A program made the position numbers and the translations under genes. From positions 124,001 to 188,000 of the forward strand of contig NZ_JAGTUF010000003.1 of assembly GCF_018224925.1 (NCBI RefSeq): DNA of 64,000 nucleotides, given 5' to 3'. Within the stretch, counting starts at the first letter, position 1, and every line of letters begins with the position of its first letter. Of the stretch, positions 31,845 to 49,158 are shown piece by piece. A model generated the notes under the pieces. It was given only the letters and a program-made list of their open reading frames with translations, was not told where the DNA came from and searched no databases. The DNA is from Magnetospirillum sulfuroxidans (GTDB taxonomy: Bacteria; Pseudomonadota; Alphaproteobacteria; Rhodospirillales; Magnetospirillaceae).

Positions 31845-32362
31845 CGCCATAAGCTGGTGCCGACGTTGATGCCGCCGCCGCCTTGTTTGTCCTGGCTGCG
31901 CTTGACCACGGCGATGCCCAGTACGCCCAGCGCCACGCCCCAGATCGGGCTGGTGTTGACCAGGGCGGCGATAATGATGGGGGCCTGGGCTGGCTCGTCG
32001 ATGATGGCCCATGACACCGCCCCCATGGTGGCGGTCCAGGTCACGGCCATGGCATAGCCGAAGGTCGGACGCCAGCGCCGCACGTACCAATCTTCCGACT
32101 TGGCTTCGGTGCGCAGGGAATCGTTGATTTCGGCCAGCGCGGCGGTGGCTTCGGCGGTTTGCAGTTCGGTCATGCGTTCCAGGTGGCGGTTGGCTTCGGC
32201 CACCTGTTCCGGGCTTACCTCGCCGCCAGCCAAGGCGCTGCCCACTTGCGCCAACGCCCCGGCGGCGGCCTTGGCCGCCGGATGGTCAAGCCCGTTGAGG
32301 GCGCCCCCCACCGCCTTGACCAATAAGGGCAGGCCGATCGAGGCCAAAAGAGCTGGGATCAT
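31841..32362 (-). CDS. Phage holin, 3TM type
   Basis: 173 residues. An amphipathic N-terminal region (MIPALLASIGLPLLVKAVGG) is followed by a helical segment (SPEQVAEANRHLERMTELQT), then WYVRRWRPTFGYAMAVTWTA, SWAIIDEPAQAPIIIAALVN and WGVALGVLGIAVVKRS. The WYVR-RWRP motif before the membrane helices marks the Holin_3TM family. It is the last gene of the phage cluster, right behind the endolysin, as expected for a lysis cassette. Confidence 0.85.
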   Translation of the reverse strand: MIPALLASIGLPLLVKAVGGALNGLDHPAAKAAAGALAQVGSALAGGEVSPEQVAEANRHLERMTELQTAEATAALAEINDSLRTEAKSEDWYVRRWRPTFGYAMAVTWTATMGAVSWAIIDEPAQAPIIIAALVNTSPIWGVALGVLGIAVVKRSQDKQGGGGINVGTSLWR

Positions 32363-32367
32363 GCTGG

Positions 32368-32853
32368 TTACTCCACGTCATTGTAGAACAGGTGGTTGCC
32401 GATTTCGGCGGCGGGATTGCGGCTGCGCGCCCAAGGGGGGGCGATGGATTTGGTGTGGTAATGGGTCGAGCCTCGGGTCGGGTCATCCAGGCCGCCGGCG
32501 ACGGCACGGCGGGCGACGCGCAGGCAGATGCGGAAGATGCGGTCCTTTTCCGTTACCGCCCCCAGCTTGGCCCGGTTCGGATCGTTTTCGTTCCAGCAGC
32601 TGAATTGCCAGGGCTTTTGGCAGACCTGTTCGATGCTGGCGCCCCACCAATAGCGGCCGCCATGGCGCTGCGCGCGTTTGACCCGATTGATGATGATGGC
32701 GGCGACCGCTTCGATGCCGCGCACCGGCTCCCCCCGCGCTTCGCCCCACAAGGTGCGCGCCAGGATATCGACGACAGAGCCGGGCTTGGCCGGCGGCGTC
32801 TGGCTTTCGGCGTCGGCGATGGCTTCAACCAAGATGACGGGCTCGATGCTCAT
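32368..32853 (-). CDS. Endolysin, SleB-type cell wall hydrolase
   Basis: 161 residues. ARTLWGEARGEPVRGIEAVA with the likely catalytic Glu, AAIIINRVKRA, KPWQFSCWNENDPNRAKLGA and GSTHYHTKSIAPPWARS match the Hydrolase_2 (SleB) domain, a lytic transglycosylase-type fold used by phages of alphaproteobacteria. No signal peptide, so export through the neighbouring holin is expected. It overlaps the upstream gene by 4 bases. Confidence 0.9.
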   Translation of the reverse strand: MSIEPVILVEAIADAESQTPPAKPGSVVDILARTLWGEARGEPVRGIEAVAAIIINRVKRAQRHGGRYWWGASIEQVCQKPWQFSCWNENDPNRAKLGAVTEKDRIFRICLRVARRAVAGGLDDPTRGSTHYHTKSIAPPWARSRNPAAEIGNHLFYNDVE

Positions 32854-33155
32854 GGCCGTACTCCGGTGACGCTGGCACTGTCCAATTTGGCTTCGATGCG
32901 CAGCAAGTGCTCGGTCAGCCGGCGCTCGACGTCTTTCAGATAGCCGGTGGTGGCATAGCTTTTCGCCACTTCCAGCTTATAGGCGGCCAGCGCTTCGCGC
33001 GCTTGGCCGACGCCGACTTCCAGCCGGTGGGCCAGGTCATCCAGGCGGTCGTCGGCTTCCTGGCGCGAGCGCCAGATCAGCCAGAACAGACCGCCAAGAA
33101 CCGGCAGTTCGACGGCGGTGACCCACCACATGGCGTCCAAACTCCAATGTTCCAT
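32850..33155 (-). CDS. Small membrane-anchored coiled-coil phage protein
   Basis: 101 residues. One membrane helix near the N-terminus (DAMWWVTAVELPVLGGLFWL) is followed by a long helix (DDRLDDLAHRLEVGVGQARE, YLKDVERRLTEHLLRIEAKL). The start at 33155 excludes an out-of-place long upstream frame. Its place between terminase and endolysin and its topology fit an Rz/spanin-like or second holin role; no motif confirms this. Confidence 0.65.
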   Translation of the reverse strand: MEHWSLDAMWWVTAVELPVLGGLFWLIWRSRQEADDRLDDLAHRLEVGVGQAREALAAYKLEVAKSYATTGYLKDVERRLTEHLLRIEAKLDSASVTGVRP

Positions 33156-33172: not shown

Positions 33173-34657
33173 TCACAGATCGAAATCGGTTGGCGCTCGC
33201 ACGCCGCCATTGCCGGGGCGCCAATCGGCGCGTTCGCCGGCTTTGACGGTGGGGCGGGTGAGGCGGACCGGTTGACTGAGCAGGCAGCCGGCCACCGCAT
33301 CCAGACCATCGTCGCGGCTTTTGCCGCCGGGCTGCCATTCGCGCATTTCGCTGACGAAGGGTGAGGTCCAGACGCTGCGATGGGCGGACAGGGCGCCGGC
33401 GGCCAGCACGGCATCGAAGGCATCGATGATGCGCTGGTCCTTGGCCTTGCGGCTGGCCACTTCGACGACGGCGCAGGGATAGCCGGCCTTGGCCAGTTCC
33501 CGCCGCAGCAGACCGGGCAAGAACCGTCCCAGGCCGTTGGTTTCCAAACTCACCGCCGGCAGGTGCAGGTCTTGGGCGAAGGCGGCGACCTGGCGACATA
33601 ATTGCGTCGCTTCGTCCTCGTCGCGGCGGGCGGGGTCGTGGGTCAGGTATTGCACCCGGTGCAGCCAATAACCGCCATCCTGGTCGGTGAACATGGCGGC
33701 GACCACCGAGGCGTCGCCCTTGCCCGGCGCCCCATAGGCGGGGTCCCACCAGCAGGCGGCGGATACCAGCCGCTTGTCGCCCAAGGTCAGGATCGGCAGG
33801 GAATTGCCTTCGGCATAGTTCAGCTCTGTCTCGTACAGGCGCAGACGGTCGGGATCCAGACGACCATCGGCGATGTTGACCGGCTTTAGCAGCATCTGGC
33901 TGTCGAATTTGTTGGGGCCGCTGCGTTTGCGCATGGCCGCGATCTTTTCCGGTGGAAAGCGATCCGGCCAAGCGCTGGCGCCGTCTTGGTCGATCAGCGG
34001 CAATTCCAGCCGGTGGAAACCGTCGAGGAAGGGGCGTTCCTCGCCCGCTTCCAACCGGGGTTTGTCGGCATAGATGGTGTAAAACGAATGCGGCGTGCCG
34101 ACGTAAAGCTGCATGCCGCCGGGGACCAGAACGTATTCGATCTCGCCCAGGCGTTCGCGCAGATCGGCGCGCTTGGGGGCTGAATCGCAGGTATTGGGCA
34201 CCTCGACGTCATCGCAGATGACGATCTCGGCGCGCGAGCCGGTGATGTTGGCGCCGATGCCCTTGGCCACCATGCTTGGATCGCGCAATTCCCCCGGCCG
34301 GTTGACGGTAAACTGGTCCGAGGCCCAATGGTCGCGCCGCTTGGGTTTCAAGCCTTGGGTCAGCGGATGGCGTTCGATGATGCGTTTGACGTTCCTCACC
34401 ATCTTTTTCGCCAAGGCGAAATCGGCGGCGAGGATGATGATGCGCAAATTAGGGTCGCCCAGCAGGGCCCAAGCGCAGAACAGGCCGACGATGGTGGATT
34501 TGCCGGACGAGCGAAAGGCCATCAGCAGCAATTCGCGGTGATGGCTTTTGTACTTGCGGGCCAGCCAGCGGGCCAGGCGCAGATGATGCGGCGGCGTCGT
34601 CTGCCCCAGCTTGGCGTTCCACACCCAGACGAATTCGGGAAAGCCGATCTTGCTCAT
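33173..34657 (-). CDS. Phage terminase large subunit (T7-like)
   Basis: 494 residues. Walker A MAFRSSGKST (46-55), Walker B with acidic pair AEIVICDDVE (143-152), RHPLTQGLKPKRRDHWASDQ, and a nuclease half beginning WWDPAYGAPGKGDASVVAAM, with SLETNGLGRFLPGLL and a final DDGLDAVAG. The order and the motif set are those of podovirus DNA-packaging ATPases (gp19/DNA maturase B type). It overlaps the putative small subunit by 4 bases. Complete and without visible defects. Confidence 0.92.
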   Translation of the reverse strand: MSKIGFPEFVWVWNAKLGQTTPPHHLRLARWLARKYKSHHRELLLMAFRSSGKSTIVGLFCAWALLGDPNLRIIILAADFALAKKMVRNVKRIIERHPLTQGLKPKRRDHWASDQFTVNRPGELRDPSMVAKGIGANITGSRAEIVICDDVEVPNTCDSAPKRADLRERLGEIEYVLVPGGMQLYVGTPHSFYTIYADKPRLEAGEERPFLDGFHRLELPLIDQDGASAWPDRFPPEKIAAMRKRSGPNKFDSQMLLKPVNIADGRLDPDRLRLYETELNYAEGNSLPILTLGDKRLVSAACWWDPAYGAPGKGDASVVAAMFTDQDGGYWLHRVQYLTHDPARRDEDEATQLCRQVAAFAQDLHLPAVSLETNGLGRFLPGLLRRELAKAGYPCAVVEVASRKAKDQRIIDAFDAVLAAGALSAHRSVWTSPFVSEMREWQPGGKSRDDGLDAVAGCLLSQPVRLTRPTVKAGERADWRPGNGGVRAPTDFDL

Positions 34658-34953
34658 GCTCCGTCCTCGTCCAATTCATCCAAGGCGCTGCGGGCTTGGG
34701 CCAGCAGACGGCCCAGGCCGTCATCGCCGTCGTCCTCGGCTTGGATTTCGCCTTCGGCCCAGCGGGCCAGCTTGACCAAGGCCTCGACATGGCCCAAACC
34801 CGCCTTGGCCGCGGCCTGCCACGCGGCGAAGCCTTTGGCGTCGGCGGGCGGGTCGTCGGCGACGAAGCGCAGGTAATCATCCAAGGCGGCGCGGATGCGG
34901 GAAGGCAGATCCGCACGGCATGCCGCCCGGATGGTGCCCAGGTCTTCGGACAT
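34654..34953 (-). CDS. Putative terminase small subunit
   Basis: 99 residues, helical (LPSRIRAALDDYLRFVADDP, WQAAAKAGLGHVEALVKLAR, RLLAQARSALDELDEDGA). No DNA-binding motif is obvious. The assignment rests on its size, helical character, and a 4-base overlap with the terminase large subunit gene immediately downstream. Confidence 0.55.
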   Translation of the reverse strand: MSEDLGTIRAACRADLPSRIRAALDDYLRFVADDPPADAKGFAAWQAAAKAGLGHVEALVKLARWAEGEIQAEDDGDDGLGRLLAQARSALDELDEDGA

Positions 34954-34983: not shown

Positions 34984-35014
34984 AAAACCCCGCCCCGGTC
35001 GGACCGGGGCGGGG
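34984..35014 (-). terminator. Terminator after the large fibre gene
   Basis: CCCCGCCCCGGTC (34988-35000) and GACCGGGGCGGGG (35002-35014) form a 13-bp perfect stem; on the minus strand it is followed by TTTTC. It lies 20 bases after the stop of the fibre gene at 35035 and ahead of the terminase genes. Confidence 0.85.
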
Positions 35015-35034
35015 GGGGGAACAGACCAAATGCC

Positions 35035-37827
35035 TTAGCGAGCCTTGGCCGGAACCGTCTTGATCCCGCCAAAGGGGGCTTCGGCGAAGGCGGCGAAGAT
35101 GTAGGCGCCGCCAGAGGCGTTGATATCGCCTGCGGTTTCTCGGATCTTAAAGCCGGAGCTCACCCCATCCACGGCGATGCCGCTTTCAGGCAAGGCCGAG
35201 TTGGCTTGCAGGCTTTCCCACCGACCGTCATTGGTCGGCGACCTTTCGGTGTCAAGGATGGACCAGTTTCCAACTGCATCCGTGCGTTTGATCAGGACGA
35301 AACGCGGGCGAAAGCCGCAATGGACGAACGGCCCATCGCTGGAACCGTTGCCGCTATAGCTGGCGAACTTGGAAAAGCCGGGGATTTCGGCCCAGCAATA
35401 GGCAATATAGCTGTGCCCGTCGGCATTGGTGTTGGCGCTGGCGCCGACTGAAAATACCGTCGCGGTGGGAGCGGTGGAGTTCCAGTCGCTCCCCGCCGCA
35501 GCGGCGTTTGTTCCGCTCAGGCTCAGCTTCGTGTTCGCCGCCAATGCGCCGATGTAAACCGACCAGTCAGTGCCCCCCGCCGACCGGCATTTCGCGATGA
35601 TGAATTTGGGCGGCGCCCCCAGGCCATGTCCAATCGTGGCGTTGGCCGCGTCTCCATCCCAGGTCACGATGCTGAACCCGGCGGCCGGATTGACGCTGAC
35701 GGCAGAGGCGATGGTGCCGGCGCTGTTGGCGACCGGTGCGCCACCGGCCTTCCAGCACCAGGCAACGTGGGAAACCCCGCTTTCCCCGACACCGCCGTTG
35801 CCGTTGGTGGTGAAACCGCGGGCGTCCAGGCTGGTGATGTTGCCGACAATGGACGTTTCCGCATCAGTGGAATTGGGGCTCAGGTAACTGGGCTGCGTCA
35901 AACCCCGAGAGGTCAAACGGTGGAGCCAGGATGCGGTGGGATTGCTGCGCGCCTTGACCCACACCAGATCGGGGGCGAATCCCAAACCGGTGATCGTTTG
36001 CGGCGCGCCGGTGCCGGTATAGGTGAGCACATCGAAATGCTTGGCCGGGGCCTGGATCGCCGGCTTGGGCAGATTGGCGGTGCACAAAGCCTTATAAGCG
36101 GGATCTGACGGTGTATATCCGGCCTGACCAAAGTCCACACTGAACTCAACGGAGCCATAAGTAGTTCCGTCACTAAATGCCGGTAGCCAGTCAACGCCAG
36201 TGGTTATACCCGTTACGCTACATTCGACAATGGCATTTCTACTGAACACCAAGGTTCCTACGTCAGCATCAAATAAAAGCTCATATACATCCTCTGTCGA
36301 AGGCTCGCTGTATGAACTCGAGGTGCTGACACCATCGCGATAGATATCCTTATGATGTCGAATGACGGTGCCTGCATCATAAATAAGGAAGGTGTTATCT
36401 ATTCTATTGCTAACGCGAACGATGCCAAATGCAGCTGCGCTGGGAGTTCCGCTGGGAATCCCAGAAGAGCCTATCTTCAACTTCCATCCCCATTTTCCAC
36501 TGGAAATCCCGAGGGAAGCGGTTGCGACACCGCTCATCCCGGAAGCCGTCGTGAAATGCAAGTTGCCGTTGGATAATGTGCAGCCAGGGCTGTGTAGTGT
36601 GTTGATGGTCGCAAAGTTATTCGTCGGCGTGTCCGTCACCACGTCCGCCGCCCCCAGGCTGACCGGGCTAAAGGTATTCGGCGCGTCGCCACCAGCGATG
36701 AATTGCACTTCAGCGGCATACTTGCCGGCCATCATGGCTACGCTGGTATAGATTTTCACCCAGAGATACGGGTAAACGTCACGGCTGACGCTTAGACCGT
36801 TCTTGGTGACGACAAGGCCGGCTGCATCCGTGACAGAGCCAAGATCGGCAATTTTGCTGGCCGTCCCGGTGTTGTCGGTGCTGTTACCCCATAGCTCGAA
36901 TACCGCGACGCGGGACCCTAAGGCGACAAAACCATCGTTATGGGAAGCGTAGATACGAACGGCGGTGATAGGCTCGCCGGCCCCCAAATGGGCGCCAATC
37001 CAGCCCGGACTTGTCGTGCCGATCCCTGCGCCAATTGTCGCACACGACACGTTTGTGACGTTATTGGTAACACCGTCGAACGCAGCGGCAAGCCCTGCGT
37101 ATTCTGTCATGTTGCCAATAGGCGCGGTTACAGTGACGACTTCACCCTTGCTGACGTCTTTCCCTAGATTGGTCGGATCATTGAAATCCAGGTAAAAGCC
37201 GTTGATGCCGAAATCCAGATCGCCGATCCGCTTTGGCCGCCACGACCCGGTGACCGGATCGGTTTCACCGAAAGCGGAGGGATGCAGGGCGGTGCCGTCC
37301 ACCAGGATCGGCTGGGTGATGTAACCGTTGAAGGTTCCGTTGGCAATGGCGGCATTACCTTCGCCGATGCGATGCTCATAGGTCTTGTTGACGTAGCCTT
37401 CGATATTCGCGAATTCCGTCAGCACGGTCGTCGGCAGTTCGGTTCCGTTCCAGTAAATCTTGGGCGTCCCCGTCGTCACATCCTTTGATATCATCAGATG
37501 TCCCCAGGACGTCGTGTCTCGGAACATGGCGTTGGTCTGGAGCCGCCCGACCCATACGTTGCTCACGGTGACCCACAGATTCAGCTTGTCGTTGGCATCG
37601 AAGAACACCGACTCGCTTTCGTTCGAGTTAATGCCGGTGATCAGCAGGAATTGTTGCGTCCCGATAGCACAGCGCTTCACCCAAGCCGAAAAGGTCCAGG
37701 TCTTGCGGTTTCCTTCCACGGTGGGCGTGCGGGTGAAATAATCCGCCACCCCGTCCAGCCGGACGGAATTGGCGATGGAAAAGGCGGCCTTGCGGCCGCC
37801 CCCCAGCATCATGCTGTCACAGAACAT
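35035..37827 (-). CDS. Large phage tail fibre/spike with LamG-, discoidin- and SPRY-like segments
   Basis: 930 residues with GGAGG before the ATG. From the N-terminus: a LamG/concanavalin-like region (SVRLDGVADYFTRTPTVEGN, KTWTFSAWVKRCAIGTQQFL; ~20-240), a discoidin-like segment (ITAVRIYASHNDGFVALGSR; ~250-380), a SPRY-like domain (GKWGWKLKIGSSGIPSGTPS, YELLFDADVGTLVFSRN; ~400-570) and a Trp-rich C-terminal part (APDLVWVKARSNPTASWLHR, IIAKCRSAGGTDWSVYIGAL). All point to carbohydrate recognition. The central third (about 36100-36640) is clearly more AT-rich than the rest, suggesting domain import. It does not share the N-terminus of the three fibres upstream of it. Confidence 0.75.
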   Translation of the reverse strand: MFCDSMMLGGGRKAAFSIANSVRLDGVADYFTRTPTVEGNRKTWTFSAWVKRCAIGTQQFLLITGINSNESESVFFDANDKLNLWVTVSNVWVGRLQTNAMFRDTTSWGHLMISKDVTTGTPKIYWNGTELPTTVLTEFANIEGYVNKTYEHRIGEGNAAIANGTFNGYITQPILVDGTALHPSAFGETDPVTGSWRPKRIGDLDFGINGFYLDFNDPTNLGKDVSKGEVVTVTAPIGNMTEYAGLAAAFDGVTNNVTNVSCATIGAGIGTTSPGWIGAHLGAGEPITAVRIYASHNDGFVALGSRVAVFELWGNSTDNTGTASKIADLGSVTDAAGLVVTKNGLSVSRDVYPYLWVKIYTSVAMMAGKYAAEVQFIAGGDAPNTFSPVSLGAADVVTDTPTNNFATINTLHSPGCTLSNGNLHFTTASGMSGVATASLGISSGKWGWKLKIGSSGIPSGTPSAAAFGIVRVSNRIDNTFLIYDAGTVIRHHKDIYRDGVSTSSSYSEPSTEDVYELLFDADVGTLVFSRNAIVECSVTGITTGVDWLPAFSDGTTYGSVEFSVDFGQAGYTPSDPAYKALCTANLPKPAIQAPAKHFDVLTYTGTGAPQTITGLGFAPDLVWVKARSNPTASWLHRLTSRGLTQPSYLSPNSTDAETSIVGNITSLDARGFTTNGNGGVGESGVSHVAWCWKAGGAPVANSAGTIASAVSVNPAAGFSIVTWDGDAANATIGHGLGAPPKFIIAKCRSAGGTDWSVYIGALAANTKLSLSGTNAAAAGSDWNSTAPTATVFSVGASANTNADGHSYIAYCWAEIPGFSKFASYSGNGSSDGPFVHCGFRPRFVLIKRTDAVGNWSILDTERSPTNDGRWESLQANSALPESGIAVDGVSSGFKIRETAGDINASGGAYIFAAFAEAPFGGIKTVPAKAR

Positions 37828-37830
37828 GGT

Positions 37831-38958
37831 TCATGCCTCCACGTCGTTATAGGCGTACTCGATGCGATCAAGGGCGCGGATGTGATAGTCGATGCGGCCT
37901 TGGCCGCTGATCTCGGCCGGCGCGCCGGTTTCGCCGACGCGCTTCCACACGCCGCCCATGCCGGCGATGGCGAAGCCTGCGGGGACGATGCCGATGGTGC
38001 CGCGCTGGCCGACCATGGCGGCGCTCAGGGCGGGGTTGGCGAAGGTGACGTCAGTGGAAAGCGTTAGATCGAAGTTCTGAAAGACGGCCATGTCCAAGGC
38101 GACCGAACCGCCGACGGTGGCGACGCTGACCGCCTGGTTGCGCTGCGGCTGGGTCCAGTCCTGGGTCACGTTCACATAGGCGACATGGTCCAGGCCTAGA
38201 TTGGTCCGGGCGCTGGCGGCGTTGGTCAGGTTAGACAAGGTGCGGTCGGCATAGGCGGCGTCGGCTTCGGCCTTGGCGTAGACTTCGCCCTTGGCGTAGA
38301 CGTCCAGATTGCTGCGCGCCACCGCCTTGTCGGCCAGATCGGCGAGGTTCTGCGCCTTCTTCAGATCAAGGGTGGAACTGGCGGCGATGGCGTCGGTGAC
38401 CTGGGTGGCGGACGAAACCCCCAGATTGGTGCGCGCTTGTTCGACGCTGGCGACGTCGGACAGGTTGTTGGCCTTCTTCAGGTCAAGGGCGGAACTGGCG
38501 GCGATGGCGTCGTTGACCTGGGTGGTGGAATAGACCCCCAGATTGTCGCGCGCGGCGGCCTTGTCGGTCAGGTCGGCGAGATTCTGGTCCGGGTCGAGGG
38601 CGTTGCTGTCTTCGGTGTTGCCGATCACCAGGGTCTGGCGGCCTTCCGGATCGGTGAGCGGGGACAGCGAAATGCCGGTGCCGGCGACCAGCTTGTCGCC
38701 AAGATAGCCCGACGAAGCGTCGGCCGAACTGACGGCGACGCGGCCGCGATGACGGATCAAGATGGTCTTGCCGGCGGATGGCGGGGCCAGGAACACCACC
38801 ACGCCGCCGCCTGGGCTGGCGGCGCCGTGCACGGTGAAGCCGGACAGTTGCTCGATATTGTCGATCAACACCTGGATGTCGGCTTCCTGATCGATGGGGA
38901 AGGAAAAGGCATAGGAATCAGAGATGCCGTTGGCGCCATAGGAATGCTGAAGGGTCAT
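37831..38958 (-). CDS. Tail fibre paralogue 1 (shortest)
   Basis: 375 residues from 38958. The start MTLQHSYGANG is chosen because GGAG lies 6 bases upstream; the longer frame reads through a terminator hairpin. An N-terminal virion-anchor domain (YAFSFPIDQEADIQVLIDNI, KTILIRHRGRVAVSSADASS) is shared with the two upstream paralogues. Then follow repeats of the type NLADLTDKAAARDNLGVYST TQVNDAIAASSALDLKKA. The C-terminal ~120 residues (YVNVTQDWTQPQRNQAVSVA, GTIGIVPAGFAIAGMGGVWK) differ from the other two. It sits 4 bases before the large fibre gene. Confidence 0.8.
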   Translation of the reverse strand: MTLQHSYGANGISDSYAFSFPIDQEADIQVLIDNIEQLSGFTVHGAASPGGGVVVFLAPPSAGKTILIRHRGRVAVSSADASSGYLGDKLVAGTGISLSPLTDPEGRQTLVIGNTEDSNALDPDQNLADLTDKAAARDNLGVYSTTQVNDAIAASSALDLKKANNLSDVASVEQARTNLGVSSATQVTDAIAASSTLDLKKAQNLADLADKAVARSNLDVYAKGEVYAKAEADAAYADRTLSNLTNAASARTNLGLDHVAYVNVTQDWTQPQRNQAVSVATVGGSVALDMAVFQNFDLTLSTDVTFANPALSAAMVGQRGTIGIVPAGFAIAGMGGVWKRVGETGAPAEISGQGRIDYHIRALDRIEYAYNDVEA

Positions 38959-39395
38959 CGTATGCTCCATGAAAAAAGCCCCGCCGGGGATCGGCGGGGC
39001 TGGGGGAGGAAGGGGGAAACAATGGGCGATAGCGGCTCTGACGGGCCTATCCATCTTTTCGCTATGGCGTCAGGCTAGATCTTCCACTCGGGATACCAAG
39101 CGTGCAGAAGTTGATGCTTGTTGTTGAAGGTGGACCATTCCACCTGCATGGAGGTGCCGGAAGGCGTCCCGGTGAAATCGAAGGCGGCGGTGACGACATC
39201 AACGGTGTGCCCACCGGGGAAGTCGAGGTTGACCGCCTCGGTGACCATCGTCCCGGTAACCCAAGTAGTGCCGCCGTCGCGGGACATGCGGATACGGTTG
39301 TCGGTGCCGTAAGTAACGGCGACTTGGGGATCGACCACCAAGGTCACCCGGCCCTGCGTGGGGGCGGCGTCGGCGGTCTTGGCGATGGATTTCAT
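38959..39395. repeat. Direct repeat copy A: fibre C-terminal module plus spacer (copy B at 41010-41445)
   Basis: The last ~320 bases of fibre 2 and the following spacer up to the fibre 1 start are nearly identical to the last ~320 bases of fibre 3 and the spacer up to the fibre 2 start. I estimate about 95 percent identity by eye. Both spacers include the palindrome-bearing terminator and the same CTATCCATCTTTTCGCTATG stretch (39050-39069 and 41097-41116). Confidence 0.85.
38972..39001 (-). terminator. Terminator hairpin abutting fibre 1
   Basis: AGCCCCGCC (38977-38985) and GGCGGGGCT (38993-39001) form the stem; on the minus strand six T follow. The T-run ends 13 bases before the fibre 1 start, so the ribosome binding site lies immediately behind it. 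Confidence 0.85.
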
Positions 39396-41009
39396 CGTCA
39401 TGTTTGTTGCTGCCGTAGTTTCAAAAACTTCCATTTCAGTAATGACGGTATCGCTGTCTCCGTTACTCCATGGCACGCTCGTGCAATAGACACGTATCCC
39501 ATTTGCACCAGATACCGGCGGAAACGTCACTGTGTTCCACCCGTTTACATTGGAGCATGTTGCTTCATCCGTCGACTTTACCGTAGCTCCATCAGCCCAT
39601 CCGGTGATTGATACTTTCGTCCACACCCCCAAAACCAGCGCCTCAACCTTGAAGTCCTTGATCCGGCCATTCATTGACACATGGTAAAAGCGCAGCTTGC
39701 TAAACGGTCTGTTTGCCGCATACGTGACGCCAAAGTAGTTTCCGCTGGCGCTGATGTAAGTGAAGCCGCTGGACCCCGTATTTCCGTCATGCAACTGTGT
39801 CAAGTTCGTCAAATTTGCGGTAGTGGTTGTCCCTGTTGCAAATGCGGTAATGTTGTTTTGTTCCGCGACATTGCTGTAGTAATCATTCGTGCTGTCGTAG
39901 ATTTGGTCGGTTGATCCTCCCGTATCTATGCCCGTCTGATCCTCGAATTCGTCCGCCCATCCGGCGACCATTCCCATATACGATGATCCGGCATTGGCGA
40001 TCATGCGCAGGATGGTCATGGCGAGGTTGGTCTTAAGGGTGTCGATCTGCGTGGTGACGCTGCTAATGGCGTTATTGACCTGGATGCGGTCGGCATAGAT
40101 GGTGTCATATTCGCCCTTGGCGTAGACGTCCAGATTGGCGCGGGCGGCCGCCTTGTCGTCCAGATCGGCAAGGTTGCTGGCCTTCTTCAGATCAAGGGCG
40201 GCACTGGCGGCGATGGCGTCATTGACCTGGGTGGAGGAAAGGACGTCCAGATTGGTCCGGGCGCTGGCGGCGCTGGTCAGGTTGGACAAGGCGCGGTCGG
40301 CATGGGCGGCGTCGGCTTCGGCCTTGGCGTAAACCTCGGCCTTGGCATAGACCCCCAGATTGGCGCGCGCCAGCGCCTTATCGGCCAGATCGGCGAGGTT
40401 CTGCGCCTTTTTCACATCAAGGGCGGCGCTGGCGGCGATGGCGTCATTGACCTGGGTGGTCGAGGAAACGCCCAGATTGATCCGCCCCTGTTCGACGCTG
40501 GCGAGGTCGGACAGGTTGCTGGCTTTCTTCAGATCAAGGGCGGCGCTGGCGGTGATGGCGTCGGTGACCTGGGTGGTGGAAAAGACGCCGAGAGTGTCGC
40601 GTGCGGCCGCCTTGTCGGTCAGATCGGCGAGATTTTGCTCGGCCTGCAAGGCCCCGTCCACCGCCGAGGCGGCAATGGTCAGCGTCTGGCGGCCATCGGC
40701 ATCGGCGGCAACGCTCAAGCTGACGCCAGCGCCGGCCGCCAGCTTGTCGGCAAGATACCCCGACGAAGCGTCGGCCGAACTGACGGCGACGCGGCCGCGA
40801 TGACGGATCAAGATGGTCTTGCCGGCGGCCGGCGGGGCCAGGAACACCACCGCGCCACCGCCCGGGTTGGCGCCGCCGAGCACGGCGAAGCCGGACAATT
40901 GCTCGACATTGTCGATCAAGACCTGGATGTCGGTTTCCTGGTCGATGGGGAAGGAAAAGGCATAGGATTCAGCGGTGCCGTTGGCACCATAGACATGCTG
41001 AAGGGTCAT
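39075..41009 (-). CDS. Tail fibre paralogue 2
   Basis: 644 residues from 41009 (MTLQHVYGANG; GGAG at 6 bases). The N-terminal anchor (residues 1-~100) is very like fibre 1. Residues ~115-330 are repeats (NLADLTDKAAARDTLGVFST, TQVTDAITASAALDLKKASN and variants). Then MTILRMIANAGSSYMGMVAG WADEFEDQTG, a discoidin-like central domain (PFSKLRFYHVSMNGRIKDFK, NGIRVYCTSVPWSNGDSDTV; ~430-540), and a C-terminal module (RVTLVVDPQVAVTYGTDNRI, STFNNKHQLLHAWYPEWKI) shared with fibre 3. The central domain is coded by visibly less GC-rich DNA. Role: host receptor binding, by analogy. Confidence 0.82.
   Translation of the reverse strand: MTLQHVYGANGTAESYAFSFPIDQETDIQVLIDNVEQLSGFAVLGGANPGGGAVVFLAPPAAGKTILIRHRGRVAVSSADASSGYLADKLAAGAGVSLSVAADADGRQTLTIAASAVDGALQAEQNLADLTDKAAARDTLGVFSTTQVTDAITASAALDLKKASNLSDLASVEQGRINLGVSSTTQVNDAIAASAALDVKKAQNLADLADKALARANLGVYAKAEVYAKAEADAAHADRALSNLTSAASARTNLDVLSSTQVNDAIAASAALDLKKASNLADLDDKAAARANLDVYAKGEYDTIYADRIQVNNAISSVTTQIDTLKTNLAMTILRMIANAGSSYMGMVAGWADEFEDQTGIDTGGSTDQIYDSTNDYYSNVAEQNNITAFATGTTTTANLTNLTQLHDGNTGSSGFTYISASGNYFGVTYAANRPFSKLRFYHVSMNGRIKDFKVEALVLGVWTKVSITGWADGATVKSTDEATCSNVNGWNTVTFPPVSGANGIRVYCTSVPWSNGDSDTVITEMEVFETTAATNMTMKSIAKTADAAPTQGRVTLVVDPQVAVTYGTDNRIRMSRDGGTTWVTGTMVTEAVNLDFPGGHTVDVVTAAFDFTGTPSGTSMQVEWSTFNNKHQLLHAWYPEWKI
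40420..40740. repeat. Near-identical shaft repeat block (second copy 42530-42850)
   Basis: About 320 bases of fibre 2 shaft are virtually the same as 42530-42850 in fibre 3; I saw only a couple of differences. Within each block, smaller in-frame repeats of roughly 126 bases encode NLxDLxxKxxARxNLGV and TQVxDAIAASxALDLKKA units. Confidence 0.8.
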
Positions 41010-41445
41010 CGTATGCTCCATGAAAAAGCCCCGCCGGAGATCGGCGGGGCTGGGGGAGGAAGGGGGAATCAATGGGCGATGGCGGCTCTGACGGGCCTAT
41101 CCATCTTTTCGCTATGGCGTCAGGCTAGATCTTCCACTCGGGATACCAAGCGTGCAGCAATTGATGCTTGTTGTTGAAGGTGGACCATTCCATCTGCATG
41201 GAGGTGCCGGAAGGCGTCCCGGCAAAGTCGAAGGCGGCGGTGACGACATCAACGGTGTGCCCACCGGGGAAGTCGAGGTTGACCGCCTCGGTGACCATCG
41301 TCCCGGTAACCCAAGTGACGCCGCCGTCGCGGGACATGCGGATACGGTTGTCGGTGCCGTAGGTGACGGCGACTTGGGGATCGACCACCAAGGTCACCCG
41401 GCCCTGCGTGGGGGCGGCGTCGGCGGTCTTGGCGATGGAGGTGAC
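41010..41445. repeat. Direct repeat copy B: fibre C-terminal module plus spacer
   Basis: Second copy of the repeat described at 38959-39395. Differences are scattered single bases, for example in the codons right before the stop and at positions corresponding to the threonine/valine change in the WVTGTMVTEA segment neighbourhood. Confidence 0.85.
41023..41051 (-). terminator. Terminator hairpin abutting fibre 2
   Basis: AGCCCCGCC (41027-41035) and GGCGGGGCT (41043-41051), five T on the minus strand, ending 13 bases before the fibre 2 start. One loop base differs from the fibre 1 copy. Confidence 0.85.
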
Positions 41446-43134
41446 GGTGATGTTGGGAGAAACAAGCGGCCCATCATCCAACTTAAATTCAAATTCCTTC
41501 CAGTAATTGTTTCCTGCTGCCGTCCCGGAAACACCTTCCATCCGGTAATAGGTGTACGAAAGAGTGTTCGTGGACAGCGTGGTTAGCGTGTTGGCCCCCG
41601 CAGAGAGCGAACCGCCGAATGTGGCGCCGATGTCTGTCCAGGTCACGCCATCGGCTGATCCGCGCCATTTCCACGTTCCGATGTTTTCCGTGCCGTGGAC
41701 GTACAGTTTGGCCTCAGTAATGGTCTTGGAGACACCCGCTCCGAAATAGAATTGTACATACCAAGAGCTGCTGATGACCTGTCCCGTAGGCAGGAAGGGG
41801 CCGGCTAACGACGTCGTGTCTCCGTTAACAAGTTGAGCGCCGGCATTTGTCCAATTGCTCCCCGCCGACAGAGAGACCGTTATAGAGGCCGTGCGATCAC
41901 CTGTTCCCCCACTGTTGGTATAGGCCGCGCTTGGCGCTGGATTGTATATGTAGTCACCGGCAGCGTCATAAGTCGCCGTCCCGAGACTGCCGATACCCGT
42001 TTGATCCTCGAACTCATCCGCCCAGCCATCGACCATCCCCATATACGATGATCCGGCATTGGCGATCATGCGCAAGATGGTCATGGCGAGGTTGGTCTTA
42101 AGGGTGTCGATCTGCGACGCCACGCCGCTAATGGCGTCATTGACCTGGGTGGTGGAAGAGACCCCCAGGTTGGTGCGGGCGGCTGCCGCATCGGTCAGGT
42201 TGGACAGGGTGTGGTCGGCATAGATGGTGTCATATTCGCCCTTGGCGTAGACGTCCAGATTGGCACGGGCGGCCGCCTTGTCGTCCAGATCGGCAAGGTT
42301 GCTGGCCTTCTTCAGATCAAGGGCGGCACTGGCGGCGATGGCGTCGGTGATCTGGGTGGAGGAAAAGACGCCGAGATTGCCGCGTGCGGCGACAGCGTTG
42401 GTCAGGTTCGACAAGGTGCGGTCGGCATGGGCGGCGTCGGCTTCGGCCTTGGCGTAAACCTCGGCCTTGGCGTAGACATCCAGATTGCTGCGCGCCATCG
42501 CCTTATCGGCCAGATCGGCGAGGTTCTGCGCCTTTTTCACATCAAGGGCGGCGCTGGCGGCGATGGCGTCATTGACCTGGGTGGTCGAGGAAACGCCCAG
42601 ATTGATCCGCCCCTGTTCGACGCTGGCGAGGTCGGACAGGTTGCTGGCTTTCTTCAGATCAAGGGCGGCGCTGGCGGTGATGGCGTCGGTGACCTGGGTG
42701 GTGGAAAAGACGCCGAGAGTGTCGCGCGCGGCCGCCTTGTCGGTCAGATCGGCGAGATTTTGCTCGGCCTGCAAGGCCCCGTCCACCGCCGAGGCGGCAA
42801 TGGTCAGCGTCTGGCGGCCATCGGCATCGGCGGCAACGCTCAAGCTGACGCCAGCGCCGGCTGCCAGCTTGTCGGACAGGTGGCCGTTGGCGCTGTCCAA
42901 GGCGGAAACGCTGATACGGCCACGATGGCGCAGGGTGACGATGGCGCCGTTGGCCGGCGCGGCGTCGAACAGGACCGAGCCGCCGTCATTGCTACCGGCG
43001 CCGCGCACGACGAAGCCGGAAGTCTGCTCGATGGCGTCGATCAGCACCTCGACATCGCTGGCGGCATCGACGGCGAAGGAAAACGGAAACAACGTGACGG
43101 CGCCGTTGGCGCCATAGACATGGTGAATGGTCAT
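41125..43134 (-). CDS. Tail fibre paralogue 3 (longest)
   Basis: 669 residues from 43134 (the second of two adjacent ATGs, GGAG at 6 bases). The anchor domain is a more distant version (VTLFPFSFAVDAASDVEVLI, ISVSALDSANGHLSDKLAAG), but from AAGAGVSLSVAADADGRQTL onward it is nearly identical to fibre 2 for about 150 residues, with additional repeat units later. The central domain (WYVQFYFGAGVSKTITEAKL, WKWRGSADGVTWTDIGATFG) is discoidin-like but unrelated in sequence to that of fibre 2, and its DNA is less GC-rich. The last ~105 residues are again almost identical to fibre 2. Confidence 0.82.
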   Translation of the reverse strand: MTIHHVYGANGAVTLFPFSFAVDAASDVEVLIDAIEQTSGFVVRGAGSNDGGSVLFDAAPANGAIVTLRHRGRISVSALDSANGHLSDKLAAGAGVSLSVAADADGRQTLTIAASAVDGALQAEQNLADLTDKAAARDTLGVFSTTQVTDAITASAALDLKKASNLSDLASVEQGRINLGVSSTTQVNDAIAASAALDVKKAQNLADLADKAMARSNLDVYAKAEVYAKAEADAAHADRTLSNLTNAVAARGNLGVFSSTQITDAIAASAALDLKKASNLADLDDKAAARANLDVYAKGEYDTIYADHTLSNLTDAAAARTNLGVSSTTQVNDAISGVASQIDTLKTNLAMTILRMIANAGSSYMGMVDGWADEFEDQTGIGSLGTATYDAAGDYIYNPAPSAAYTNSGGTGDRTASITVSLSAGSNWTNAGAQLVNGDTTSLAGPFLPTGQVISSSWYVQFYFGAGVSKTITEAKLYVHGTENIGTWKWRGSADGVTWTDIGATFGGSLSAGANTLTTLSTNTLSYTYYRMEGVSGTAAGNNYWKEFEFKLDDGPLVSPNITVTSIAKTADAAPTQGRVTLVVDPQVAVTYGTDNRIRMSRDGGVTWVTGTMVTEAVNLDFPGGHTVDVVTAAFDFAGTPSGTSMQMEWSTFNNKHQLLHAWYPEWKI

Positions 43135-43147
43135 CATGGGCTCCATG

Positions 43148-43177
43148 AAAAAAGCCCCGCCGGGGATCGGCGGGGCT
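43148..43177 (-). terminator. Terminator hairpin abutting fibre 3
   Basis: AGCCCCGCC (43153-43161) and GGCGGGGCT (43169-43177) with six T on the minus strand, directly ahead of the fibre 3 ribosome binding site. Same stem as the hairpins before fibres 1 and 2; here it also terminates the collar gene transcript. Confidence 0.85.
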
Positions 43178-43258
43178 GAGGAAGGCTTTGTTGGTTCAAT
43201 GTTGTCCGCAGATCCTGGCTTCACGTCAGCGCCGGATGGGCGGATTTCCGGGACGGGT

Positions 43259-44455
43259 TCAGGTTTTGATGATGAAATTCAAGACCAGGGACGGTGGCAT
43301 GTTGTTGTGGGCTTGATTGCCGCCACTGCTGCCCGAGGTGCCGGAGGTGGCGGTGGCGCCGCCCATGTAGCCGCTGGTTTCCGAGCTTTGCAGTACGGCG
43401 CAGCCATGGCTGTGACTTGGCATCTCGGCGATACTCAAAATGTGTGTTTCGGTGCCGATTTTACCGCCGATCGTCCGATTGGTCAGATTGGTTCCCAGAC
43501 CGGCGCCGATGGCGGCGCGGCCACGCAGATCGGGCAGGGCGAAGGTGGTCGATCCGTCGCCGGCGCCAAAGGTGGCGCCAAGCACGGTGAACAGGGCGGC
43601 GTAGGTGGTCCGCGATACCACGGCGCCGTCACAGATCAGCCAATGGGCCGGGGCACTGGCGCCGGCAAAAGCGGTGACGGTGCCGGGCGGGATGCTTTCG
43701 ATCAGCGGCAGCCGGGCGGTGGCGATCAGGCCGTTGCCATCCAGTTCGACCAGATTGCCGGGGGCGTTGCCGATGTCGCGTCGGGCCGCTGCGCCGAGGC
43801 CCAGATTGTCTCGTGCCGCGCTGGCATCGGGCAGGTCGGCGAGATTGGCGGCCTTGGCCAGCGGGTCGCCGACGCTGTTCACCGCCGCCAGGATCACGTC
43901 GCGGGCCTGCGTCGCTGCCGTTGCCGCCGCTGCCGCCTGGGCGGCGGCGACGGTGGCGTCGCCCGCCGCATCGGGGTCATTGGCGGAATTGACCAGGCGG
44001 CTGCCATCGGCGCTCCATTTCAGACTGCGGTTGGCGGCCGGCTCCGGCAGCGTCACCTCGGCGATGGCGGCCGAGGTGGGGGAGCGCTTGACGGCACGGC
44101 CGACCTCTTCCGCCACCTGTTGCAGTGCGGCGACCTGGTAATCCAGTTCGTCGTTCAAGGTTTTGGCCCGGATCAGGCCATCGGCCTGATAATCGCTGGT
44201 CCGGGCCAGGCTGAGGCGGCGGCGCAGGGTGATGCGGGTGCCGGCGACCGGGGGGACGGCGAAGATGGCGACACCGCCGGTGGAGATACCGGCCCCCGAT
44301 ACCGAATAGCTTCCGCTTTCGACGTGCTCGTCCTGCCAGACTTCCAGATCGGCCAGTTTGAAGATGGCGAAGGGGAAGGTGAAGGCGACTTGCAGGCCAT
44401 CGGCGACGTATTGGATTCGCGGCGCCACATCATTGATTTGAATGTGTTCGATCAC
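43259..44455 (-). CDS. Phage tail fibre/collar protein
   Basis: 398 residues. The N-terminus (QYVADGLQVAFTFPFAIFKL, ADLEVWQDEHVESGSYSVSG, ITLRRRLSLARTSDYQADGL) resembles the virion-binding domain of T7 gp17-type fibres. Residues ~170-225 hold an Ala-rich helix and one repeat unit NLADLPDASAARDNLGLGAA related to the fibre shafts. The C-terminal half is a tail collar domain (IPPGTVTAFAGASAPAHWLI CDGAVVSRTTYAALFTVLG, TFALPDLRGRAAIGAG, MPSHSHGCA). It is the first fibre-type gene after the nozzle gene. Confidence 0.85.
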   Translation of the reverse strand: MIEHIQINDVAPRIQYVADGLQVAFTFPFAIFKLADLEVWQDEHVESGSYSVSGAGISTGGVAIFAVPPVAGTRITLRRRLSLARTSDYQADGLIRAKTLNDELDYQVAALQQVAEEVGRAVKRSPTSAAIAEVTLPEPAANRSLKWSADGSRLVNSANDPDAAGDATVAAAQAAAAATAATQARDVILAAVNSVGDPLAKAANLADLPDASAARDNLGLGAAARRDIGNAPGNLVELDGNGLIATARLPLIESIPPGTVTAFAGASAPAHWLICDGAVVSRTTYAALFTVLGATFGAGDGSTTFALPDLRGRAAIGAGLGTNLTNRTIGGKIGTETHILSIAEMPSHSHGCAVLQSSETSGYMGGATATSGTSGSSGGNQAHNNMPPSLVLNFIIKT

Positions 44456-44470
44456 GATATGTTCTCCGAG

Positions 44471-46378
44471 CTAACTTGAGACTTTCATCTCGGTGGCCAC
44501 CGCCAGAATGGTGCACGGCAGCGGTGCGTCCTGGCTGATCCGCCATAACGGCGCGAAGGCGTCGCGCTTCCAACCGATGGCGCGCATCTGCACGTCGCCG
44601 GAAAACAGCGGTGGCCCTGAATCGAAGGCATGGCGGCCGAAGCGGCGAAAGGGAATGGGCGTCGGGCCCTTGCCGGTATCCAGATGCAAGGCCTGGGTGT
44701 CAAGCAGGCGGAAATGGGCGCGGATCAACCGCACCACCGTCCCCGGCCCGGCGCCGCCGGCCGTTTGCACCACGGGCGGCAGGGGTTCGATTTCGTGGGT
44801 GAAGGGCAGGCCGATTTGGACGGTCTTGGCCGGTTCGCTTAAGGTGACCGCGCCATCGCTGACTTGGGCGGTTTCAATGGCGGCGCCGTCGGCCAGAACC
44901 CGGACTTCGCGTCCTTCCAGATGATGGAGGCCGGTCCACACGGTTTTGGCCGTCTCGGCCGCGCCGCTGAGGGCTGCATCCAGGGCGAGGGCGCTGTCGA
45001 AGCGTTCGATGGACACAAGGCCGGCGCGGTCGATCAGGGCATAGACCTCGCCCTCGACCACCGCCACCGAGACAAAACGGCCATCGGTGGCATGGGTGGT
45101 CCAGGCGGTGACCTTTTCGGCCCGGAAGACGGTGACGGTGCTTAAGCTTCCGTCGCCCATGACCACATGGAACAGCCGGCGGCCGGCATCGTAATCCTGG
45201 TCGATCGGGGCCTGCATGACATGCTTGGCCAGCATGGCCAGATCGGTGGATTGATAGGCCTGCTCGACATCGGCGAACAGGAATTCGCGCAAATCCTGAC
45301 CGTTGCGCGAGACGAACAAGGTGGCGCCATCGACGTCACGCGGCGGCACCGTGCGATCGACGGGCGAACCGACGCGGGTCTGGCGGGTCAATTGGATCGA
45401 GGTCGGCGTCAACGGCTGGCCCGACACCATCCATTCGGCCCCCGAGGTGAAAACCTGCAAATGACGGCCGGAAAACACGTTGCGGATGGCGTTGACCTGA
45501 TCGGAGAGCAAGGCGAATTCGATGGCTTCGTCGTCCAGCGCCTCGCCCAGATCGAAGTTGAACAGGTCTGACGATTTCGACAGCCACAACCGGTTGGGCT
45601 GGTCGCGGCTGCCGCCGATGACCAGGCGGTCCTGGTGGAAACAGACGGAAACCGGCCAGCCGCGCACCGCCGACAGCGCCTGTTCCTCCCAATCCTTGTG
45701 CGTGCTGGTGTTGACCAGATTTTGTTTCACCGTGGCGCTGGCCTGGGTGGCCGAGGCCACGGCGGTGATCTCGACTTCCTTTTGTTGCAGGCGAAAGCGG
45801 GTGCCGACATGGCCGGCGACGAAGACGGCGGCCGAGGCGGTAAGGCTGATGGTTCCCGAACTGGCCGAAGGCTGCAAGGTGACCGCGTCGTCGGCGAATT
45901 TGTGATAGGGCTGCTGGATCACCCCGTCGGCTTCATAGAAGCTCCAAGCGGCAATAGTCCAGGCGCTGTGCGAGGTGCGGGTCAGCTTGCGCGGGGCCAC
46001 TTCGGGATGGACGATCAGCAAGGTGTCGGCGGTCTGGGTCCAGTTGATCTGCTTCAGCTGCGCCCCACTCCATGGCGTGCTCATTTCAGCGACGAAGATT
46101 CCATCGGCGTAGATGGCCAAATGCAGATCGGTCAGCACCAGCAAATAGGTTTGGTCGGTGTTGAACTCGAAGGCGATCAATCGGCCGCTGCCTTGGGCCA
46201 TGTCCACATGGCGCAACCCGGCCCGCCGCGACACGCCGCCGATGGGCGAGATGAAGACGTTGCGCAGGCGCTTGGCGCCGTTGGCATAGGCCGACAGATC
46301 GCCGCGGCCCAGCATGTCCAGCGACACTTCGCCGGCGGTGAAATTGGTCTTCGCCATGGTGATGGTGCCGCCGCTCAT
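44471..46378 (-). CDS. Podovirus tail nozzle-like protein
   Basis: 635 residues. It begins MSGGTITMAKTNFTAGEVSL, then LRNVFISPIGGVSRRAGLRH and continues with a beta-rich body (VCFHQDRLVIGGSRDQPNRL, WLSKSSDLFNFDLG, LQVFTSGAEWMVSG, TLFVSRNGQDLREFLFADVE). This pattern is found in long structural proteins encoded after the tail tubular gene in podovirus-type prophages of alphaproteobacteria and corresponds by position to tail tubular protein B/nozzle. The start overlaps the preceding stop by 4 bases. No damage visible. Confidence 0.75.
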   Translation of the reverse strand: MSGGTITMAKTNFTAGEVSLDMLGRGDLSAYANGAKRLRNVFISPIGGVSRRAGLRHVDMAQGSGRLIAFEFNTDQTYLLVLTDLHLAIYADGIFVAEMSTPWSGAQLKQINWTQTADTLLIVHPEVAPRKLTRTSHSAWTIAAWSFYEADGVIQQPYHKFADDAVTLQPSASSGTISLTASAAVFVAGHVGTRFRLQQKEVEITAVASATQASATVKQNLVNTSTHKDWEEQALSAVRGWPVSVCFHQDRLVIGGSRDQPNRLWLSKSSDLFNFDLGEALDDEAIEFALLSDQVNAIRNVFSGRHLQVFTSGAEWMVSGQPLTPTSIQLTRQTRVGSPVDRTVPPRDVDGATLFVSRNGQDLREFLFADVEQAYQSTDLAMLAKHVMQAPIDQDYDAGRRLFHVVMGDGSLSTVTVFRAEKVTAWTTHATDGRFVSVAVVEGEVYALIDRAGLVSIERFDSALALDAALSGAAETAKTVWTGLHHLEGREVRVLADGAAIETAQVSDGAVTLSEPAKTVQIGLPFTHEIEPLPPVVQTAGGAGPGTVVRLIRAHFRLLDTQALHLDTGKGPTPIPFRRFGRHAFDSGPPLFSGDVQMRAIGWKRDAFAPLWRISQDAPLPCTILAVATEMKVSS

Positions 46379-46944
46379 GACCGCACCTCGATCAGCGGGA
46401 AGTTGGTGATGGCCGACGGCACGTCCTGCTGGGCATCGACCAGTTTTGCGCGGCGGTATTCGTCCTCGGCCAGCCGATACAGGAACTCGGCGCGCGTGGT
46501 GCTTTCGGTCAGCGGAATGCAGAACTCGGCGGCCAGCCGGCAGATCAGCACTTGATCAAAGAACGGCGGGAACGAAATTTCGGCGGGGCGGAAGATATAG
46601 GTCAGCGTCACCTCGTCGGCATCGCAATGCAGCCGGTTTTCGGCGATGCGATAGGACAGGCCGAAGCCCTGACCGGCGACGCCCGCCGACATGGCCCGCA
46701 GGAAGTCGGCGGGCAATTGATAGGCCATGGCATAATCGGCCACCGGTTGCGCCACCAGACGCGGCAACGACACCTGGCCGGTGGCGAATTTCCACGGATA
46801 GGACGACAAGGTGGCGTCACGCACGGAGGGATAAAGATTGGCGCACACTTCCGCTTCGGCGGTGCCTTCGTCGAAGGAAGCGATGGTGGCCGCGCCCAGC
46901 TTCAGCAGCGCGCGCGAACACAGGGCGATGGCTGAAAGGGCCAT
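46375..46944 (-). CDS. Tail tubular protein A-like / head-tail connector
   Basis: 189 residues with AAGGAG before the start. ALCSRALLKLGAATIASFDE, VCANLYPSVRDATLSSYPWK and LPADFLRAMSAGVAGQGFGL, then FDQVLICRLAAEFCIPLTES, are the pattern of gp11-like tail tubular proteins that join portal and nozzle. It is coupled to the nozzle-like gene. The portal it would bind is not encoded in the window. Confidence 0.85.
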   Translation of the reverse strand: MALSAIALCSRALLKLGAATIASFDEGTAEAEVCANLYPSVRDATLSSYPWKFATGQVSLPRLVAQPVADYAMAYQLPADFLRAMSAGVAGQGFGLSYRIAENRLHCDADEVTLTYIFRPAEISFPPFFDQVLICRLAAEFCIPLTESTTRAEFLYRLAEDEYRRAKLVDAQQDVPSAITNFPLIEVRS

Positions 46945-48465: not shown

Positions 48466-49158
48466 ATGACTCAAGTCGAAACTTCGGCGCGCAGCGCCTC
48501 CGGTACTCAGCGCACCGAACGCATTGAAGCGCGCGCTAATGCATTGCTCAGCGATTGCCGTCGTGCCTTTCACGCCTTTGGCGAATTGGACGAATTGGCG
48601 GAAAATCTGCGCATCTTGTCCTTGAACGCCGAATTGGCCGCCGGCCGCGCCGGTGATAAGGGCCGCGCGGTGCGGGCGTTGACCCAGTACACCCGTGAAC
48701 TGGTCAATCGTTTGGCCCAAATTCGGGGCGAGATGAACCAGTTGCGGACGCGCACCGAAACCTTGTCGCAAAAGATCGAAGACGAACTCAAGCAACTGCG
48801 CAGCATCGAGGAATCCTCGGCGGGGGGGGCGGACAGCGCCCAGTTCAGCGAAATGATGCGGTCGTTGGTGGACAAGCTCGACGATCTGTCGACCAATGTC
48901 GAAGATTTGTCGCGCCGCGCCCACGGCGTCGAGGAAGTGGTCAGTCAGTCGGATTCGATCGCGACCAACATCGCCATTGAAGCCGCCGCCGCCGGCGTCC
49001 ATGAAAAGGAATTCCGCACGGTGTCCGACACCATGCGGCGGTATGTGGATAATCTGCGCACCATGATTGATGATGCCTCGGACGCCGTCCGCCGCGCCTT
49101 GGAAAAGGTCGATTCGCTGCGCCGCCTGGGGATCGAGAATTTGCAGGGACTGCGCTAA
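48466..49158 (+). CDS. Soluble coiled-coil protein with MCP-like signalling tips
   Basis: 230 residues, almost all helical, no membrane segment or HAMP domain. Residues ~45-75 (ENLRILSLNAELAAGRAGDK GRAVRALTQYTRELV) copy the hairpin tip of chemoreceptors ([28 protein letters not shown]). A second, weaker copy is at ~160-195 (SDSIATNIAIEAAAAGVHEK EFRTVSDTMRRYV). It may interact with CheA/CheW-like partners or be a scaffold derived from a receptor. It is a single-gene unit with its own terminator. Confidence 0.7.
   Translation: MTQVETSARSASGTQRTERIEARANALLSDCRRAFHAFGELDELAENLRILSLNAELAAGRAGDKGRAVRALTQYTRELVNRLAQIRGEMNQLRTRTETLSQKIEDELKQLRSIEESSAGGADSAQFSEMMRSLVDKLDDLSTNVEDLSRRAHGVEEVVSQSDSIATNIAIEAAAAGVHEKEFRTVSDTMRRYVDNLRTMIDDASDAVRRALEKVDSLRRLGIENLQGLR

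Follow-up and report, generated by a model that had tools for sequence, protein, structure and literature searches.

Why should a bacterial chromosome carry tail-fibre genes in tandem, two of which have nearly identical ends on either side of entirely different centres? This question is raised by a 64,000-nt stretch of the genome of a magnetic bacterium, Magnetospirillum sulfuroxidans (contig NZ_JAGTUF010000003.1, positions 124,001 to 188,000; the whole stretch is called the window below), in which three such genes, F1, F2 and F3, follow one another. We consider it probable (about 0.7) that the three fibres are receptor-tip genes, with exchangeable tips, of a conserved and vertically inherited cluster for a podovirus-type particle resembling gene transfer agents (GTAs). 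To judge from its genes, these bacteria have inherited this cluster and preserved it intact over a very long period, and it may serve to transfer DNA between cells. G000 denotes the genome holding the window, other G numbers the compared genomes, and C and L numbers contigs and loci.

The fibre array and the exchange of its tips

F3 (41125–43146; like all features of the array, on the minus strand) has its own type of anchor, followed by a shaft, a pre-block, a centre of about 165 aa and a 109-aa C-terminal domain. F2 (39075–41021) combines an F1-like anchor with an F3-like shaft, a centre of about 157 aa with a weak F5/8C match and an F3-like C-terminal domain, and F1 (37831–38970) joins an F2-like anchor and shaft to a third kind of tip, as a preliminary description of this DNA had noted. 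Its claim that near-identical blocks flank unrelated centres in F2 and F3 is likewise borne out: the shaft blocks (40386–40745 in F2 and 42511–42870 in F3) are 99.7% identical over 351 nt, the tip blocks, comprising the C-terminal domain and the start of the spacer (39045–39405 and 41095–41455), are about 95–96% identical, and the centres are wholly unrelated, not point-varied. The pre-block DNA ahead of the centres (39928–40086 and 41993–42151) is 90% identical. F2 is a chimera, in which an F1-like anchor is joined to an F3-like shaft and tip (Fisher p = 1e-28). The synonymous divergence (dS) between F2 and F3 is 0.011 in the shaft, 0.11 in the tip and 0.49 in the pre-block (over 114 nt). Spacer and tip are linked partly through one long tandem duplication, so that a matching spacer does not by itself argue for swapping. 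A unit of anchor, shaft, centre and tip was probably duplicated in tandem to give the F2/F3 pair; the shaft would later have undergone recombination or conversion, in keeping with its low dS, and at least one centre would have been replaced along with its pre-block, as the difference in dS between pre-block and tip suggests.

In the related genomes, tips differ on matching anchors, and matching tips are joined to different anchors. A fourth fibre, fib0 (43259–44455), with a Phage Collar tip, has an anchor similar to that of fib0 in G002 and G006 (76–80%), whereas its tip is similar to that of the second fibre in these genomes (62–63%), whose anchor is in turn similar to that of F3 (86–87%). 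The fib0 anchors of G002 and G006 are 92% identical and their tips have no recognisable similarity, the G006 tip resembling that of G005 instead (67%). F1, on the other hand, is kept whole in the three species compared (G002, G005 and G006), with 88–89% identity in the anchor and 72–75% in the tip. The fibre array thus appears to be the part of the element that turns over, while the core stays.

G000 also contains a separate prophage on contig C11 (loci L006 and L018), with a portal, a capsid (64%), an internal virion protein and a fibre carrying the F2/F3 tip. This tip is 87–88% identical to those of F2 and F3, although the anchor of the prophage fibre is of the fib0 type (63%). The dS between the prophage and F2/F3 is 0.52–0.53 in the tip and 0.19 in a 96-nt stretch of the pre-block, so that the link appears old in the tip and less so in the pre-block stretch. 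Since the tip module is common to both, prophages are plausible donors of tips, though transfer may have run in either direction.

The preliminary description had proposed that recombination changes which receptor domain is joined to which anchor. As history this stands, given the chimeric F2 and the mismatches of anchor and tip between species, but as a standing cassette it does not. A programmed host-range cassette would require frequent RecA-dependent recombination between the repeats, switching tips within a population; the shaft and tip blocks do offer usable homology, and the close species G002 and G006 do bear different tips on nearly the same anchor. However, there are no inverted repeat pairs of at least 40 nt within 35000–46000 of the window, where the repeats are direct, and recombination between the copies would therefore delete or convert a gene rather than flip a segment. 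No recombinase or invertase turned up among the scanned ORFs of the cluster and its near flanks (Pfam and/or PHROGs), and occasional evolutionary exchange accounts for the pattern, so that such a cassette seems very unlikely. The exchange appears to have taken place on an evolutionary time scale, and not by a programmed switch. This situation is different from that of phages Mu and P1, in which invertible fibre cassettes join alternative receptor tips to a constant part; alternative tips on a constant part are found here too, but neither inverted repeats of at least 40 nt nor an invertase among the scanned ORFs. We give hardly any credence to tandem duplication followed by fast point-mutational divergence of the centres without exchange: the F2 and F3 centres are similar in length and may have a discoidin fold in common, but they are unrelated throughout. 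The same feature would set them apart from the products of a diversity-generating retroelement (a template/variable repeat pair with a reverse transcriptase), at which no dedicated search was aimed. Modular tail fibres in general have a constant N-terminal anchor and a variable receptor part that is swapped by recombination. The present fibres resemble them in these respects, but their variable domain is internal, between the pre-block and the C-terminal domain, and may be absent or more than one domain long.

The array is punctuated by terminator-like hairpins on the minus strand, with a 10-bp stem and a T-run, at the starts of F3 (43153–43177), F2 (41027–41051; the same hairpin with one loop change) and F1 (38977–39001; the same hairpin). 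In all three a perfect, GC-rich stem is followed by T's, and the hairpin ends 5–6 nt before the first ATG and 17–18 nt before the second. This gap leaves no room for a promoter, and thus the later fibres probably rely on read-through past the hairpins, which is a fair guess and no more. A search of the whole of G000 with the 29-nt hairpin sequence (at most 3 mismatches) found three sites, all in the fibre array; there were two sites in G002 and two in G006, all four preceding fibre genes, and none with a reversed-pattern control. Similar hairpins lie at the same place in G010 (two genes), G007 and G005, and in G007 and G010 both partners of one stem pair are changed (by eye). The fibre start of G022 has a different hairpin, and the fibres of L006 and L013 and the fib0 of L171 (G011) have no such hairpin. 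Another strong terminator-like hairpin (12-bp stem; 34988–35014) precedes the small gene upstream of the large terminase gene (TerL).

Distribution and inheritance of the particle cluster

The capsid gene was found in all 13 Magnetospirillum genomes, as was a portal above the Pfam cut-off, and the listed matches have no internal stops. In the family, 33 of 55 genomes have the capsid gene, and all 33 also have the portal; among them is every one of the 17 genomes of genus g16 (three partial: G039, G044 and G048). At the level of the order, for which portal matches were counted (gene clusters being inspected within the family only), a portal at E ≤ 1e-60 is present in 145 of 297 sampled genomes and 45 of 111 genera.

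Within the genus, for genomes with data, identity to G000 is 89–98% for the major capsid protein (MCP), 78–89% for the portal, 75–87% for the tail protein TtpB and 78–89% for TerL, compared with 75–89% for the cellular protein SMC. Between G000 and G002, dS is 0.38–0.62 for MCP, TerL, TtpB, the tail protein TtpA and the portal, 0.71 for the endolysin and 0.63 for SMC; in general, core dS is of the same order as SMC dS in the same pairs, the lowest ratio being that of TtpA between G002 and G006 (0.08 against 0.25). The core is under purifying selection: in the tested pairs, dN/dS is 0.037–0.247 for MCP, TerL, TtpB, TtpA and the portal and 0.113–0.288 for the endolysin, against 0.060–0.158 for SMC and 0.27–0.56 for F1. 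Distances correlate with those of SMC for the portal (Mantel r = 0.84), TtpB (0.92), TtpA (0.84) and TerL (0.79) as well as for MCP (all p ≤ 0.002, 8–12 genomes each), and also for an S24 repressor (0.72) and an MCP-signal-like protein (0.59). G010, in which SMC is in pieces, was left out of the trees and Mantel tests, and TerL, TtpB, TtpA, the endolysin and F1 are missing in some genomes, partly because the cluster runs off the end of a contig (G003, G004, G008 and G009). The main clades are common to the portal and SMC trees, and the element appears to be transmitted vertically with the cell genome, the deep forks being not fully congruent.

The cluster in the window, on the minus strand, consists of the genes for MCP (PF19821; 47293–48111), TtpA (phrog_394; 46375–46944), TtpB (phrog_376; 44471–46378), the four fibres, a virion or tail fibre-like protein with Laminin-G and DUF7483 domains (35035–37827), a putative small terminase assigned by its position ahead of TerL (phrog_31793; 34654–34953), TerL itself (phrog_38; 33173–34657), a small conserved ORF (phrog_29007; 32853–33155), an endolysin (Hydrolase_2; 32368–32853) and a holin (GTA_holin_3TM; 31841–32362). 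There is no portal. By PF12236, G000 has two portals, one on contig C57 (529 bits) and the other in the C11 prophage (155 bits), and the C57 half of the element contains, besides the portal, a T7-type scaffold gene (PF05396), the S24 repressor gene and small genes. Both halves are adjacent in G001, G007, G008, G010, G011 and G012. In G000, G002, G004, G005, G006 and G009, which form one clade in the portal and SMC trees, the capsid half lacks scaffold and portal and begins beside the MCP-signal-like gene, and the scaffold and portal lie elsewhere, adjoining a ParA gene; the G003 portal is likewise on another contig, without ParA. In the one-contig genome of G002 the halves are 1.37 Mb apart, so that the element of this genome could very likely pack no more than a part of itself.

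The genus-wide presence of capsid and portal, the divergence in step with SMC, the low dN/dS and the split halves thus point to a vertically kept, GTA-like element. The view of the carrier as an ordinary phage has to be given up; an ordinary recent prophage is ruled out by the genus-wide presence and the dS values.

The nature of the particle

If the element is GTA-like, the particle would pack DNA and lyse the producing cell, and the fibres would set which cells are bound; we infer both its production and its packed content from the genes. Two other readings of such a cluster have to be weighed. It might be a decaying ordinary prophage with a fibre array left over from its phage life, in keeping with the lack of a portal at the window locus and of integrase or replication genes among the scanned ORFs of the cluster and near flanks, in the window and L170 of G000 (no genome-wide integrase search was made, and flanks in other genomes were listed or read by eye only). 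The missing integrase and replication genes also set the element apart from an autonomous temperate phage. However, capsid and portal are kept, with matches free of internal stops, throughout the genus, dN/dS is about as low as that of SMC, and the portal is retained on another contig, which makes decay very unlikely indeed. A vertically kept phage-derived particle with a non-transfer job (killing kin, DNA release or protein delivery) would agree with the presence of lysis genes and with the lack of the internal virion protein family of the prophage relatives. The terminase and portal are, however, under purifying selection, pointing to DNA packaging, and we regard this explanation as rather unlikely.

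Several observations weigh against a vertically kept, GTA-like element with exchangeable tips. The capsid gene was not found in 22 of the 55 family genomes, the Mantel r of MCP is just 0.65, an imperfect congruence, and the portal and SMC trees disagree in the deep placement of G011 and of G003/G012. Capsid genes have also moved: on contig C54 of G011 (L172), a capsid 85% identical to that of the element lies beside a portal only 32% identical. Capsid genes thus appear to have been exchanged with prophages, with some mosaicism. Not all fibres have been exchanged, since F1 also follows SMC (Mantel r = 0.91, 7 genomes). The internal virion protein family of the related prophages (profile A5) has no match in G002, G005, G006 and G011, and its sole occurrence in G000 is in the C11 prophage, while in G001 it is confined to contig C45, which is not the contig of the element; DNA delivery would therefore need another route. 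As to the hairpins, the 29-nt sequence has no site at up to 3 mismatches in G001 and G010, and terminator-like hairpins as a class are not enriched (19 sites versus 19.0 in shuffles).

The prophages L172 and G003:C136 both carry capsids 83–85% identical to that of the element and portals of 32–38% identity. Named phages appear distant from the element among the matches listed: identity of TerL is at most 31.3% among the best 12 of 2396 records, and that of the capsid is 57.7% (MT838907) and 48.5% (Pelagibacter phage EXVC031P) among the best 12 of 99 records.

GTAs are placed in the viriform families Rhodogtaviriformidae, Bartogtaviriformidae and Brachygtaviriformidae, described as three independently derived groups (PMC9662315). 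The present element is similar to them in having structural and packaging genes of tailed phages (capsid, portal, scaffold, tail, terminase, holin and endolysin) that are kept vertically, and VSH-1, according to a title cited in PMC3899980, has a divided genome, just as the halves are apart in one clade here. It differs in its T7-type connector portal, T7-type scaffold and podovirus-type tail proteins. For Azospirillum lipoferum and Azospirillum sp. B510, about 10-kb phage DNA thought to represent GTAs has been described, and RcGTA-like genes are indicated within B510PP01 (PMC3899980). Those alphaproteobacterial phage-like particles are suspected GTAs as well. The portal family of the present element is PF12236. 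In M. gryphiswaldense seven PHAST prophage regions were reported, and the term 'gene transfer agent' does not occur in the main text of that report (PMC7860042); nor is there an element of this kind among the titles listed from the open-licence literature on gene transfer agents and Magnetospirillum. A further possibility, to which we would give just short of an even chance, is an independently domesticated podovirus-type GTA, present in much of one alphaproteobacterial order and in 13 of 13 Magnetospirillum genomes, whose recipient range is renewed by tip exchange with resident prophages in the hairpin-punctuated array. If the element were a true GTA, it would be a concrete, testable gene-transfer machine in a large group of bacteria, among them a genetically tractable magnetic model, and would extend GTA-like domestication to T7-type phages, and the fibre array would show how a particle can replace its receptor tips and yet keep its core unchanged over ages.

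The centres, their socket and neighbouring genes

The F2 centre matches PF00754 (F5/8C, discoidin) at E = 6e-4, below the cut-off, and the F3 centre has no match. The ORF set comprised 176 members, of which 175 passed by E-value and 123 were distinct; 25 of these 123 had no detected pre-block and were excluded from the centre statistics, so that two tandem loci, L064 and L109, do not figure in the pair table. PF00754 matches 19 of 44 aligned members (picked from 59 single-insert proteins, mostly via a BLAST link to F3), and the centre-family profile matches PDB chains including AlyQ 7d29 (E = 1e-7) and a CBM32 domain, 5zu6 (E = 9e-5), whereas the F2 centre alone has a single, chance-level PDB match (E = 0.22). 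The family is thus linked by profile to CBM32/discoidin lectin domains, although F3's own centre has no clear match; the centres would bind sugars. A lectin fold is also known from R-pyocin fibres. In the phage collection, none of 146 records covers 80% of the F3 protein, and the best 40 of the 146 match the shaft stretch only. The F3 C-terminal domain was detected in 3 of the 13 genus genomes as a single-sequence query, and a family-wide alignment added G005, weakly (E = 3e-6).

In some proteins the pre-block and C-terminal domain are only 4–7 residues apart, with no insert ('empty sockets': L105:5749-6321, L089, L119:5737-6306, L062, L087, L106 and L048:2641-3228). A socket of this kind, with no, one or a longer insert, would be a recurring design for new receptor specificity, even without any GTA role. 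At loci L156 (6439-7764 and 12945-13889) and L155 (6511-7824 and 12690-14003), a small provirus is present in inverted copies; it encodes a Rep_1-like protein, a packaging-type ATPase and a phrog_28223 protein (genes checked in L156) and may be a tailless virus. Its spike-like proteins share the pre-block and the C-terminal domain of the tail fibres and carry an insert, which in L156 is a discoidin domain. The inverted copy in L155 is 4400 nt at 100% identity, and the three longest inverted pairs in L156 are 74–87% identical; an invertible tip cassette is rejected there, as the whole small provirus is inverted and not a tip (no search for an invertase was made at these loci).

The MCP-signal-like gene (48466–49158; 230 aa), whose product has a match to chemotaxis-receptor signalling proteins, is the neighbour of the capsid gene and is read from the other (plus) strand. 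This arrangement recurs throughout the 13 genomes of the genus (82–96% identity; dN/dS 0.015–0.115 in the tested pairs), and no such gene turned up alongside the element in G022. Near the S24 repressor gene of the G000 portal half there is a gene for a sigma-70-family factor (L170:13106-13792), to which none of the 19 other loci in the comparison has a match. In G010, TtpA is in two overlapping pieces in different frames (L202:12168-12735), and a second portal copy (C2:1083976-1085390) is also in two pieces; either the genes are broken or the assembly is in error. In G011, three tandem copies of an exported-looking protein (by eye) of about 187 aa lie between the portal and the small genes (L211:9017-11057).

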